A stretch of DNA of 64,000 nucleotides from Paraphaeosphaeria minitans (Eukaryota; Ascomycota; Dothideomycetes; Pleosporales; Didymosphaeriaceae): positions 806,001 to 870,000 of the forward strand of contig WJXW01000013.1 of the NCBI GenBank assembly GCA_015832175.1, written 5' to 3'. Of the stretch, positions 2,829 to 26,809 are shown piece by piece. The notes below the pieces were generated by a model that had not been told where the DNA came from, searched no databases, and worked only from the letters and a program-made list of their open reading frames with translations. The position numbers were made by a program, and so were the translations under genes. The stretch's first letter is position 1. The number at the start of each line of letters is the position of its first letter.

Positions 2829-4760
2829 ATGCATCATCTCCCTGACGAGCTCGTCCTCCAGATCATATGCTGTAAGGCTCTCGGAACGCATCCATGCGAC
2901 CGGAACTGACACGGCCCGCCAGACCTCGAACCCGAAGAGCTCGTGAAGCTCCAACACGTCTCGCGCCAGTTCCTTCGCCTCTCGCGCGACAACAATCTAT
3001 GGCGCAGCTTGTGCTTCGAGCACTCGGCCGCCGAACGCAGGCGCCGCCGCATGCTGCCCACTACCGATATCGACCCTCGTCTAGCTGAGCTCATCCGCGC
3101 TGCCAACGACGTCGCGAACGCGTTCCCTCTCGGGGTGCACTATCCGACCGCCCCGAGCGCAGATGTACAAGCCCAGAGAAATGCGGGGAGGAGGAGGACG
3201 GCGCTGCTGGCGAATTGGGATCCGAGCTACCCTGGGGAGAAGGTGGATTTCTACCAGGAGTTCATACAGAGACATGCGCCGCATGAGCTGAGGTGGTTTC
3301 AGGAAATGCAGTATGGGAACCCAGAGGATAACTTGCGGCATGAGGCGACGGGCGCGGGGATTGTGTATGGGGAGGATGGGCTGGCGGAGAAGCTGGTTGC
3401 GCCGTTGGACGATGGGAGCGTGTGCGTGTGGGACGCGTCTGCGAGAGAGGGACGGCTGGGGCGCATCGTTGCGAGGAGCGCTGTAGGGCTATTGCCTGGC
3501 AAGGGTAGTGATCTGGATATGGACACGAGGCTTCGCCAGAGCCGGGCGGCAATGACAGAGACGGGGGCGGTCGAGTGCGTGAGCGTGGACAGCAGGGCAG
3601 CGAAGGCCTTCTTCGCGGTGCAGAACACACTCAACGAGGTGGACCTGAACACACTCCAGGTCGTATCCCGCGCGCCGTACCCGTTTCCCATCACCGCGCT
3701 GTCCGAGGCGCGCCATCCGACCCCTCTCACCGTCGGCACGAACTGGACGCTGCACCTGCACGACTCTCGAACACCACCCTCCACGTACACCCCAGCCGCA
3801 GGCGCCTCCCGCTGCGAACTCATCGCCGGCGCGCCCTCCTCGCCACTGACGTCTTTCTCCCGCCTCAAAACCACGGATGTAGGCGCCCACGTGTCCCTCG
3901 CACAGCCCGGCGCCCTCTCAATCGCGCACCTCCCCACCGCCCGCGAGTGGGATGCCAACGGCGATATCTGGGTCGCCGGCCGGTTTACTAGCCTGCTCAA
4001 CTTCGACCGCCGATTCTTCCCTCGCCTGAGGGGGACGGTGCATTCCGGTGCGCGCCTGAGCTGTCTCGCTGCGCTGCCGTTTCCCTTCGTCTCGCGGTCG
4101 TCCTCCTCCATTCCCACTTCTCAAGACGGCCAAGCAGCAGGCCACACGCTGGTCGCAGCGGGCGAGTATAAAGGCAAAGGCAGCCTGGAACTGTACAGCC
4201 TGAGTCCGCACACTTCGCGCGGTATCAACAGCAGCGACTCGCGCACCACGCGAAATGCCAGCGCGTGCTACCACAACCGGCAGACGGCGAGCGCATCGAA
4301 GCTGCTGTCCGTCGCGCCGCATGGCACGCGGCTCGTTTTCAGCGACGGAGACGGCGGGCTGAAGTGGGTGGAGCGCGACGCTTGTGCCGCTGTGCGCAGT
4401 CTGAACATCAACACCGACGTAGTAGACAAGGCGAGGCCCGGCACCGCGCAGGGCGAGACCAGACCCGCATCCGGCGACATCGTGCAAAAGGTTTTGCCGA
4501 CGGTGGACGCCTCGCTGCACGCCACTAGACCCGCGGTCCCGCTCGGGCAGGATCATCTCGTGCTGTGGACGGGGGATGGGAGGTTGGGCATGGTGGGGTT
4601 CGGGGCGCCGGTGGAGGAGGAGTGGAAGGATGCTGTGGAGGAATGGGAGGGCGAGGCGGCGGAGGAGAGGGGCAGGGAGAGGGAGTATGCGGGTAGAATG
4701 AGGGAGGCGTTGGAGATGCAGGCGAGGGAGCTGAGGTGGTTGAGGGGGTATGGGCTATAG
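2829..4760 (+). CDS. F-box protein with a beta-propeller-like middle region
   Basis: Start ATG is at 2829. A 51-bp intron at 2872-2922 (GTAAGG, ctgac branch, CAG) joins MHHLPDELVLQIIC to YLEPEELVKLQHVSRQF, which together make a classic N-terminal F-box (about residues 1-45). Exon 2 is 2923-4760, for about 626 residues. By family the F-box binds Skp1 and makes the protein a substrate adaptor of an SCF ubiquitin ligase. The middle has loose WD40-like blades (for example DDGSVCVWDASAREGRLG and a second one ending in LHLHDSR), which may be the substrate-binding part. The last 50 residues are Glu/Arg-rich and probably a coiled coil. The substrate cannot be inferred. Long antisense frames here are codon-bias shadows. 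Confidence 0.8.
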
Positions 4761-5168
4761 ATGAGGAGGGGAGGGAAATGGCTAGAGTATTCCTTAATAG
4801 GCAAAGAAAGAGTGTGTTGAAATAGACCAAGCCGCCGCGGTAGCCCATCGACCCTGGATTCGTTTCTCCGCCTGCCACTCGTGCGATTAGGAACGCACAA
4901 GTTCGACCATCTGGGAGACATCAGTAGACCTGTGGAGACTCGTTGGATGCAAGTTGCTCAAATCACGGGTGCCTGCGATATTGATGCATCTACCAGCCAG
5001 CGTGTAGATCATGTATACATTGTGCAGCCACTTCGAGAATGGAAGTCGACCAACATGCTTAGTTTTACAAAAGCCACCGTGCCAGATCCGACCATCAGAG
5101 ATACAGTCTGCCTATATTCCTCCTCCACTGTCCTGGTATGTTGTACCGACGGTCGGTGCTTTCAACGT
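4761..5168. other. Intergenic between convergent genes
   Basis: This is the shared 3' flank of the F-box gene (+) and the ATPase-inhibitor gene (-). I see no gene, RNA or repeat. Confidence 0.5.
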
Positions 5169-23773: not shown

Positions 23774-25016
23774 GAGGTCGCAGACGAAACAGCGAGAGAG
23801 AGACTAGCATTGCGCCGACTGAGCTGACTCTTCGAGGCCGTGTTTAGGGCTGCAATCGAGATGGGGCGTTCGGCTGGGCTGAGATTAGCGAGCCAGCGCC
23901 AACTGCGGCCTCGAACACGCCCCGCTCAGAAACCGACATGGGCCAGGGAACAGAAAAAGGCCAGAGAGCTTGGATGTGATGGAGGATGGAGCATCCACCA
24001 GGCAGAGTCGAGGCTGCCCCAGCACCGCCAGGCAAGCGCACGCTCCTCTCCACAGTACACCAGGTAGTCTACCCACCAGACGCCGACGACGGTCCAGATC
24101 ATGTCGTGCATAGGTACGGTGAATGCTAGGATGCACTGCCGTACCTACTTCGGCTCTTGTTCCCGCTAAGCGAGCGCCTTCCTTCCTTCCGTATTGCTAT
24201 TTCCGTCGGCTTGTTCCCCAGACGCACCTGCTGCTTCCGTCTGAACCTCCACGCCTGTTCCACCCGACCCCGTGGAGGAAAGAGTCGCCCGCTTGGTTGT
24301 GACCGCCGTGGCCGTCATCGCCGCTGGGGTTGAGGTTTGCCAGTGTTAAACCATCCATCTTGCGCGGTCCTGAACAAGATGCTGCGCGATGGCTAGATAC
24401 GCTGTGTTGGAATAGTGAGTACAGCATTGCAGAATGAACAAGATGCTGAATAGTGACTGCAACATTGCAGAATAAATAAGATGCTGCGCAGCAACCGAAT
24501 ACGCTGTGTTGGAATAGTCACCACAACATTGCAGAATGAACAAGATGCTGCGCGACAACTCATTACGCTGTGTTGGGATAGTCACCGCAACTTTGCAGGA
24601 CAAACAAGATGCTGCACGGCATCTGAATGCCCTGTGTCTCGACAAACGTACAACTTTGGTTCATCGTGTTGCCGATACCGTATACCAGCGAGACTAGGAT
24701 GCCAGGAAATGTTGCCGCAGCACTGACACGCAAGGACGATGGCCTCATCGCCAAACGCGCCCATCGTCAGGCCGTCACTTGCACAACGCATCCCCAGTTG
24801 CCATGTTCTGCGCCTACATTCCACCGTCTGTGGGGCGGTCCGACGACCGCGCGTGAGACTCGCTAAACGTGGTGGGTCCACAACTTCGGATCATGGGGGG
24901 AGAATTTTCGGTAGAGAGCATTGATACGGTGTTGATGCATAGCATGGTGCAAGACGCAGCTCATACCCATGTATAGATATGAGCTATCTGGTGATAGTTG
25001 CATCGAATTACGATTA
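23770..25016. other. Intergenic: kinase promoter and minisatellite
   Basis: Contains the upstream region of the kinase gene, a short CCTTCC repeat near 24,180 and the 64-bp minisatellite listed separately. No coding sequence is recognised; repeated QCC/NTA-type frames on the minus strand are translations of the minisatellite. Confidence 0.5.
24372..24637. repeat. Minisatellite, about 64-bp unit, roughly 4.5 copies
   Basis: Units begin near 24,372, 24,436 (internally shortened to about 38 bp), 24,474, 24,538 and 24,600 (diverged and truncated). Each carries the landmarks AAGATGCTG, ACGCTGTGTTGG, AATAGT and CATTGCAGAA in the same order. Copies are imperfect and directly repeated without spacers, so this is not a CRISPR-like array. 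Confidence 0.88.
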
Positions 25017-25052
25017 GCATCGGTGGTTTAGTGGTAAAATTAGCCGTTGCCA

Positions 25053-25081
25053 TTGATCTGCCTTCACCAGTTCAATTAATC
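25053..25081 (+). other. Canonical-position tRNA intron (37/38), 29 nt
   Basis: It lies one base 3' of the anticodon, the only position used by ordinary nuclear tRNA introns, and removing it leaves a 7-nt anticodon loop. It would be cut by the tRNA splicing endonuclease. The exact boundary could shift by a base, since T occurs at both ends. Confidence 0.8.
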
Positions 25082-25103
25082 TCGGCTAGCCCCGGGTTCG
25101 ATT

Positions 25104-25154
25104 GTGAGTTACGCCAGTTGCAAAGAGTCCTTGATCATTACTAACATCTCCTAG
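25104..25154 (+). other. Spliceosomal-type intron inside the tRNA T arm, 51 bp
   Basis: It starts GTGAGT (25104), has a perfect TACTAAC branch site (25139-25145) and ends CTAG (25151-25154), with branch-to-acceptor spacing like that of fungal introns. Its length matches the 48-57-bp introns of the protein genes here. Precise removal restores a perfect T stem and loop. It could instead be a coincidental insertion, but all four signals and the clean excision agree. Confidence 0.8.
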
Positions 25155-25175
25155 CCCGGCCGATGCATCCAATTA

Positions 25176-25180
25176 TTTTT
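25176..25180 (+). terminator. RNA polymerase III terminator
   Basis: Five T residues begin nine bases after the tRNA 3' end, the standard Pol III stop signal and spacing. Confidence 0.75.
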
Positions 25181-25672: not shown

Positions 25673-26809
25673 TTACACGCACTGCGAGTAGTAGTCGTTC
25701 ATCACAGTGCACATGGAGCCACTCTCGCAGCTCGTAGCACCGACGTGGTTCTTGCCACCGCACTGGCCGTACTTCTTCACTGCTCCGACACAGCCAGTGG
25801 AGCCGGGGGCGGAAGGAGCAGTGCCATTGGTAGGGGCTGCGATGACCGTGGTCTGGAAAGTGCTGGGAGCAGCAACGACCGGGGTCTGGAACGTGCTGGG
25901 TAAGACGAGGCTGGGAAGGGCGGAGGCGGTGGTGTTACCGCCAGGGGCAGCGGTGACGGAAGCCACCGGGGCGCTCGAGACGGGGGCGGCTACGCTGGAG
26001 ACAGCAACTTGGGTGGAGAGGCTGACGCTTGTGGACACAGCAGCGCTCGTCGCAGCGGCGGCTGAGGTCGCAGGTGTGGTGCTGTTGCTGGAGGGCTTGG
26101 GCGACACAGGCGTGGTGGAGTCAGAGCCGCCGCAGCTGCCAACGGGTCCTCCAGGGGCAGTGTAGTTGGTTGGGTCGAAGCCATTGTAGACGTTGGGAAT
26201 GTAGATGTTGGCATCCTCAGCGTTGTACGCCCCGGGGAGCTTGATCTCAGGACTGCAAGCGCCGTCGCTGCCGGTGCCGGTGATCTTGAGCTGAGCGCAG
26301 CCGATGTAGAACTGGGCTCCGCCCACGGTCTGCGCGCCGTGCAGCGCAAGCATCTCCGAGCGAAGGAGGTACTCGCCGCTGGGCAGACCCGTAGGGAGCT
26401 TGAACTCGTGCGTCATGTTGGCTGCGCCCATGATCTCGTTGGCCCACTTGCCATCAACGTAGTCGAGTTCGTCGATCTTGAACCACGAACCAACGCCGGT
26501 TGCATCCTTCGCGCTGTCAACAGGACCGAAGAGCATGTGGGTGATCGGGCCAGGGTGGCCAGACTGATCCCACTGGACCTTGATGGTGTTGCCTCCGCTG
26601 GCGGCAACAGTGTCGGCCACGCCGGTCTGTCCATTGACGTTGCAGGTGATATCTTCGCTCGTGACATCCGTTACGGGACTGTTGGACGGCGGCATCCGGA
26701 TGCCGACCTGGTAGCCGGGAGTCTCGTCATTGACCCAAAACTGGTGGAAGTTCTGATGAGCGGACACAGCCGCAATGAAGGAGGAAGCGAGGATGCTCTT
26801 GGAGAACAT
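25673..26809 (-). CDS. AA9 lytic polysaccharide monooxygenase with C-terminal CBM1
   Basis: An intronless gene of 378 residues; the ATG at 26809 begins the signal peptide MFSKSILASSFIAAVSA. Cleavage would leave His18 as the mature N-terminal residue, the first ligand of the copper histidine brace. The second ligand is in GHPGPITHMLFGP, and the axial Tyr in GGAQFYIGCAQLKI. These are the AA9 (formerly GH61) signatures. A Ser/Thr/Ala/Pro-rich linker of about 110 residues follows. A cellulose-binding CBM1 ends the protein (KKYGQCGGKNHVGATSC, then DYYSQCV). AA9 enzymes oxidatively cleave crystalline cellulose outside the cell, using an electron donor and O2 or H2O2. The divergent AA3-type gene 2.6 kb away could supply either. 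Confidence 0.96.
   Translation of the reverse strand: MFSKSILASSFIAAVSAHQNFHQFWVNDETPGYQVGIRMPPSNSPVTDVTSEDITCNVNGQTGVADTVAASGGNTIKVQWDQSGHPGPITHMLFGPVDSAKDATGVGSWFKIDELDYVDGKWANEIMGAANMTHEFKLPTGLPSGEYLLRSEMLALHGAQTVGGAQFYIGCAQLKITGTGSDGACSPEIKLPGAYNAEDANIYIPNVYNGFDPTNYTAPGGPVGSCGGSDSTTPVSPKPSSNSTTPATSAAAATSAAVSTSVSLSTQVAVSSVAAPVSSAPVASVTAAPGGNTTASALPSLVLPSTFQTPVVAAPSTFQTTVIAAPTNGTAPSAPGSTGCVGAVKKYGQCGGKNHVGATSCESGSMCTVMNDYYSQCV

Follow-up and report, generated by a model that had tools for sequence, protein, structure and literature searches.

Spliceosomal-type introns in tRNA genes of the fungus Paraphaeosphaeria minitans

The window analyzed in this study, a 64,000-nt stretch of the Paraphaeosphaeria minitans genome (assembly GCA_015832175.1, contig WJXW01000013.1, forward-strand positions 806,001 to 870,000), carries a tRNA-Gly(GCC) gene with two inserts (Table 1). 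The original prediction placed in the T arm of this gene a 51-nt segment that starts with GTGAGT, contains TACTAAC, and ends with CTAG, besides a 29-nt intron at positions 37/38, and both are present as described. The T-arm segment is flanked by TTCGATT and CCCGG. ARAGORN reported zero tRNAs on the unaltered window, and an Rfam search of the window gave nothing at gathering scores. After removal of the 51 nt, ARAGORN reported a tRNA-Gly(GCC) with the 29-nt intron and fully paired acceptor (7), anticodon (5), and T (5) stems, and the perfect stems predicted upon excision are thus confirmed.

Table 1. Features of the tRNA-Gly(GCC) gene and its flanks, in window coordinates.
Feature	Position	Strand	Basis
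tRNA-Gly(GCC) gene with two inserts (discriminator A, 25167)	25017..25166	+	Direct reading; ARAGORN after excision
Gly(GCC) exons	25017-25052, 25082-25103, 25155-25166	+	Direct reading
Ordinary 37/38 tRNA intron, 29 nt	25053..25081	+	ARAGORN structure line
T-arm intron, spliceosomal type, 51 nt, positions 60/61	25104..25154	+	Same site in 5/7 Gly(GCC) genes; signals tabulated
5′ splice site GTGAGT	25104..25109	+	Identical in 5/5 Gly introns
Branch motif TACTAAC, presumed branch A 25144, 10 nt before intron end	25139..25145	+	Signal table
3′ splice site CTAG	25151..25154	+	Signal table
A box TGGTTTAGTGG, intact	25024..25034	+	Direct reading; box positions from the available text of PMC3978253
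B box core GGTTCGATT, intact; C61 after the core replaced by intron	25095..25103	+	Direct reading
TATA-like element, 45 nt upstream of the gene, putative function	24972..24975	+	
T5 run, starting 10 nt past the gene, presumed Pol III terminator	25176..25180	+	

Several other features lie in the same window. By eye, a degenerate tandem array of a unit containing AACAAGATGCTGCG and GCTGTGTTGGAATAGT is visible just upstream of the tRNA gene (24340-24640). On the minus strand (25673-26809), an intact reading frame encodes an AA9 lytic polysaccharide monooxygenase with a CBM1 domain, which is 92% identical to a Paraphaeosphaeria sporulosa protein and 81% identical to a Karstenula rhodostoma protein. 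This single protein points to a member of the Didymosphaeriaceae (Pleosporales), the lineage of P. sporulosa. Additionally, the G+C content falls from 0.51-0.57 earlier in the window to 0.30-0.33 at 32001-64000, and we take this second half to resemble the repeat-rich fungal regions degraded by RIP.

The search for further tRNA-Gly(GCC) copies that the original prediction proposed was run on the genome (47.45 Mb, 30 contigs, completeness unstated) and returned seven genes (7/7 candidates scored, all read). Five of them carry an insert of 51-54 nt (GTGAGT...CTAAC...YAG) at the identical nucleotide of the T arm, while two (L003 and L004) have no T-arm intron. The exons of the copies are identical, with the exception of L007, in which an acceptor pair is compensated, C-G having become T-A through changes on both sides. 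The intron cores share a mean identity of 51%, against 47.5% (SD 5.2%) for shuffled cores. Conservation of exons and splice signals alongside drifting cores is the pattern expected of introns that are removed from working genes. The short motif GTTCGANNGTRHGT is not enriched by itself: the genome contains it 26 times and its reversed form 51 times, and the Gly(GCC) genes account for 5 of the 26. Upstream of six of the seven genes (L002-L007), a common block composed of GGTACTT (AGTACTT in L002), an A/T-rich stretch, and ATCA(G/A)(T/C)TGT lies approximately 10-55 nt away; the window copy does not have this block, which is either a shared promoter element or a trace of duplication.

An inventory of at least 93 tRNA loci, listed by hand, was built from the Gly search, an Rfam tRNA search (58 matches; best 62 of 1307 candidates scored), and exon queries, one of which scored the best 40 of 76 candidates; the totals of loci and inserts are lower bounds. 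At least 87 loci remain when four mitochondrial-type and two decayed ones are subtracted. Spliceosomal-type inserts were found in at least 19 tRNA genes, representing eight isotypes, 11 sites, and 13 contigs: Gly(GCC) (5), initiator Met (3), His (3), Leu (3), Pro(AGG) (2), Ser(CGA) (1), Ala(CGC) (1), and Thr(CGT) (1). Many of the remaining 68 loci are known as match coordinates only. The T-arm insert and its counterparts are real, recur across the genome, and exceed chance.

These genes were reached by different routes. In an excision scan over a subset of the genomic DNA, each GTRNGN..CTRAY..YAG stretch of 38-140 nt was removed and ARAGORN was asked for a tRNA spanning the junction; 15 of 956 candidates gave one (9 distinct genes, as some loci overlap), compared with 0 of 750 when the identical DNA was read backward. 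The scan added Pro(AGG), initiator Met, Ser(CGA), and Leu(CAG). The scan itself required the splice signals, which therefore do not count as independent evidence for the genes found in this way. Seven loci (L084, L085, L086, L088, L091, L092, and L093) were fetched solely because their exon matches were split, and the signals are present in all of them except L093, a decayed Ala gene. Moreover, four low-scoring loci in the Rfam results (L094-L097) proved to be three His genes and one Thr gene, all with the signals. Once the inserts were excised, ARAGORN reported a tRNA for 19/19 interrupted genes, although its anticodon label is wrong where the 37/38 intron is misplaced and is incomplete for Ser.

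The inserts occupy the acceptor stem (3/4 in Ser, 5/6 in Thr), the D stem (10/11 in Leu C10 and two 3′-strand sites one nucleotide apart in Leu C2a and C2b), and other positions (21/22 in Pro, 25/26 in Ala, 38/39 and 46/47 in initiator Met, 53/54 in His, and 60/61 in Gly), as assigned by eye from the structure lines. None of the 11 sites is 37/38; the nearest, 38/39, occurs in one initiator-Met gene (numbering by eye).

Nuclear genes for Phe, Trp, Tyr, Val, and elongator Met were not recognized among the at least 93 loci. By eye, we take the ARAGORN labels Val (L038), Trp (L054), and Tyr (L035) to reflect misplaced introns in Ala, Leu, and Arg genes, respectively. A query with seven yeast and Neurospora tRNAs gave 0 matches and also missed the His genes that are present, so it is uninformative for these five tRNAs. 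For U6 (1 locus) and 5S (28 full-length loci), no intron was seen, in a search that interrupted copies could escape; not all Pol III genes thus appear to be affected. A search for relatives gave one 20-nt pattern match, in a Deltaproteobacteria MAG, which is at about chance level by estimate and has no tRNA there, and viral contigs gave no match.

The inventory also contains loci of a different nature. Mitochondrial-type tRNA genes (L016, L019, and L020) lie at G000 C3:2840217-2853194, inside a 4.29-Mb contig, which reflects either a transfer of mitochondrial DNA to the nucleus or an assembly misjoin. Decayed copies, namely Ala L093 and a Glu copy in L049 (~4689-4762), give a picture of real tRNA decay in this genome. 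L032 (G000 C10:840122-840236) is tRNA-like, with an anticodon-arm insert composed of two near repeats, GGGCGGTTGTACGAAG and GGGCGGTGTACGAAG.

Judged by their signals, the inserts appear to be of the U2 type. All 19 have GT..AG ends and measure 49-66 nt. The 5′ sites are GTAAGT (7), GTGAGT (6), GTAGGT (3), GTAAGC (2), and GTACGT (1), and the 3′ sites are CAG (14), TAG (4), and AAG (1). The branch motifs are CTAAC (14), CTGAC (3), CTCAC (1), and CTGAT (1), and the presumed branch A lies 9-13 nt before the intron's 3′ end. For comparison, ten candidate mRNA introns from the first 32 kb of the window, picked by reading frame and in some cases doubtful, have a median length of 51 nt and a median branch distance of 11, and the tRNA inserts resemble them in both respects. 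The extended 5′ site with GT..AG ends, the branch spacing, and the mRNA-intron-like length are thus all found in the inserts. TTTT is absent from the 15 introns examined, without significance (0/15 against a shuffle expectation of 1.9, P 0.11), and is also absent from the candidate mRNA introns of the window.

Two other intron classes were considered and rejected. A group I or group II intron would need a catalytic core of hundreds of nucleotides, for which 49-66 nt is too short, and the window has no Rfam match at gathering scores. The mobile (introner-like) intron suggested by the original prediction was not borne out: 15 of the 19 inserts, the Thr intron not being among them, were queried against the genome (15/15 candidates scored), and no near-identical copies appeared, each insert matching only itself and the His introns resembling only each other.

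The interrupted genes carry candidate Pol III transcription signals. Runs of T4-T9 begin 3-38 nt past the gene end in 19/19 (no control), and TATA-like elements lie upstream of 15 of 18 genes (no control), the Thr locus, with 8 nt of upstream DNA only, being left out and Gly C5, C3, and C8b lacking the element. According to the available text of PMC3978253, the A box covers positions 8-19 and the B box covers positions 52-62. By eye, both boxes are readable in the interrupted genes. In the Gly genes, C61 of the box is lost to the intron. In His, the final AG of the intron precedes TTCGATTCCC, and in Leu C10, the final CAG precedes CCGAGCGG, so part of the box is rebuilt from intron bases in both.

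All three initiator-Met loci found are interrupted (C17 and C9 at 46/47 and C1 at 38/39; 7/7 candidates scored), as are all three His loci, each at 53/54 (6/6 candidates scored). No intact initiator-Met or His gene was found in the assembly, whose unstated completeness means that such a gene could be absent from it. Because both tRNAs are indispensable, the inserts must be removed, barring an intact gene that is missing from the assembly. The spliceosomal route appears to be the sole source of initiator-Met and His tRNAs in this genome. Across the whole gene, the two other His loci share 87% and 80% identity with the query. Beyond the splice signals, the His introns (L094-L096) share a GGCCCTCTC/GAGAG hairpin (by eye) and a TACTGACTGTA block, and they are more conserved than the other tRNA introns.

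Collectively, these features suggest that the interrupted loci are very probably tRNA genes that work, are transcribed by Pol III, and carry functional spliceosomal introns of the U2 type. Pol III would use A and B boxes that remain recognizable in spite of the intron, possibly helped by the TATA-like element. The nuclear spliceosome would excise the 49-66-nt intron through its pre-mRNA-type 5′ site, branch, and 3′ site. Pairing of the T, D, or acceptor stem and folding of the tRNA body would become possible only after this step. Next, the separate 37/38 intron would be cut by the tRNA endonuclease, with trimming and CCA addition to follow. Yeast Sen54 probably contacts the D arm and acceptor stem, as stated in the accessible part of PMC3978253, which argues that the endonuclease requires a folded tRNA body for the 37/38 cut and, in turn, that the spliceosome would have to act before it.

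The original prediction had left two readings of the T-arm segment, a spliceosomal intron in a tRNA gene or an insert that inactivates this copy, and would have taken the former as refuted if, among other things, intact copies existed elsewhere and this locus were absent or decayed in relatives. We favor the former. Intact copies do exist (two of the seven Gly genes), but the exons of the window gene match those of the other copies and show no decay. Applied to the whole set, inactivation would mean that the inserts create pseudogenes that are tolerated because intact copies are found elsewhere, as they are for Pro(AGG) (one of three, L089) in addition to Gly(GCC); uninterrupted full-length matches also occur for Leu(AAG), Ser(CGA), and probably Thr(CGT) (C11, match only), and decayed tRNA copies such as L093 belong to this genome. 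However, this explanation is very unlikely, since the same inserts are present in all initiator-Met and His loci found, where inactivating every copy would be lethal. Furthermore, the interrupted copies have exons free of mutations relative to their families, and the Gly intron cores are nearly random in identity, whereas L093, which is truly decayed, has mutated exons and no splice signals, as inactivation would look. It is also extremely unlikely that assembly or sequencing errors produced 19 inserts of differing sequence on 13 contigs, all precise at the tRNA exon borders and all with splice signals.

The remaining explanations concern the machinery. The inserts might be tRNA-endonuclease introns of the bulge-helix-bulge type at unusual sites, with incidental splice-like motifs. 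Ectopic tRNA introns of this type are known elsewhere (PMC3978253, available part), and three of the four central pairs are possible in 9 of the 19 inserts, including all three His introns. Nevertheless, none of the 19 forms the full four-pair central helix (one geometry, one shift, no positive control), and the spliceosomal signals at fixed spacing in 19/19 would be left unexplained, which makes this reading very unlikely. Alternatively, Pol II might transcribe the interrupted genes, and spliceosomal removal would follow from that rather than from the entry of Pol III transcripts into the spliceosome. Spliceosomal splicing is normally coupled to Pol II, and the TATA-like elements noted above would suit such transcription. 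However, these elements also occur upstream of uninterrupted tRNA genes, and in fission yeast, Pol III uses TATA-like elements at tRNA genes. The readable A and B boxes and the T runs likewise argue against Pol II, and we consider its involvement very improbable. Fungal U6, moreover, is itself a Pol III transcript. The original prediction assigned spliceosomal introns to Pol II transcripts, a premise that is overly restrictive, as fungal U6 snRNA and U3 snoRNA genes are often interrupted by introns, according to the available text of PMC5832005.

With functional spliceosomal introns as the preferred reading, the distribution of the two intron types among gene copies might record how one of them was lost. 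Gly L003 and L004 and Pro L089, which have no spliceosomal intron, retain the one at 37/38. Among the Gly genes, some with a long 37/38 intron have the T-arm intron and others do not, and the T-arm intron is also seen alongside a short 37/38 type; these combinations are explained more simply by a single loss than by repeated gains at the same nucleotide. Judged from the copies rather than from a tree, the disappearance of one intron alone would be accounted for by loss via an RNA copy that the spliceosome had already processed and the endonuclease had not. On a broader view, the spliceosome has probably become an obligatory tRNA processor in this pleosporalean lineage: initiator-Met and His tRNAs would exist only as spliceosomal-intron genes, introns would have entered at no fewer than 11 sites, filtered by the need for readable Pol III boxes (even boxes rebuilt from intron bases), and precise losses from copies that keep the 37/38 intron would be the trace of a spliceosome-first order.

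In textbook accounts, nuclear tRNA introns are cut at 37/38 by a dedicated endonuclease. If the inserts are spliced as the sequence suggests, two RNA-processing systems that are supposedly separate would work serially on one tRNA, the spliceosome would be fed by Pol III transcripts, and essential tRNAs would depend on it. Such genes would offer natural tests of whether splicing requires Pol II, of new-intron gain, with 11 sites spread over very short genes, and of the tolerance of Pol III factors for divided control boxes. If the spliceosome is indeed obligatory, translation initiation would depend directly on splicing capacity and might be tuned by it. In practical terms, essential tRNA genes can escape standard tRNA finders in such genomes, as the blank ARAGORN result on the window illustrates.

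The inserts can be placed among known introns. Ordinary nuclear 37/38 introns occur in the same Gly, Pro, and other genes here; in contrast to the inserts, they have a different position and no GT..branch..AG signals and would be removed by another enzyme. Introner-like elements, which van der Burgt et al. reportedly found in Dothideomycete fungi in 2012, are likewise new spliceosomal introns in the same fungal class, but they form multi-copy families, unlike the inserts tested here. mRNA-type introns in fungal U6 snRNA and U3 snoRNA genes are said to have been described by Tani and Ohshima in 1989 and by Canzler et al. in 2016. These introns are alike in placing a spliceosomal 5′ site, branch, and 3′ site in small structured RNA genes and in their repeated gain in fungi, and as of 2017, frequent interruption by an intron was known for no small structured RNAs other than U3 and U6 (PMC5832005, available part). 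Here, however, the hosts are tRNA genes, with 11 sites, eight isotypes, and no intact initiator-Met or His gene found, and U6 shows no intron at the one locus seen.

Spliceosomal introns in ascomycete rDNA (Cubero et al. 2000 and Bhattacharya et al. 2000, both as cited in the accessible text of PMC11889510) also reside in non-coding genes outside Pol II transcription, in the same subphylum, but their hosts are Pol I rRNA genes rather than tRNA genes. The ectopic tRNA introns of archaea and Cyanidioschyzon merolae, as described in the available part of PMC3978253, lie in the D, T, variable, and anticodon arms and the acceptor stem, as the inserts do; those introns form bulge-helix-bulge motifs and are cut by the endonuclease, whereas the inserts have spliceosomal signals and no full helix. 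The available part of PMC11782384 treats archaeal-type and group I introns in tRNA genes and does not mention spliceosomal ones. Among open-access titles and abstract openings, a scope that mostly excludes subscription papers, no report of spliceosomal introns in tRNA genes was found, and the exact phrase “spliceosomal introns in tRNA” is absent from the open-access literature searched. Collectively, these comparisons indicate that the kind of intron is known, while the tRNA hosts and the apparent dependence of essential tRNAs on it seem to be new.
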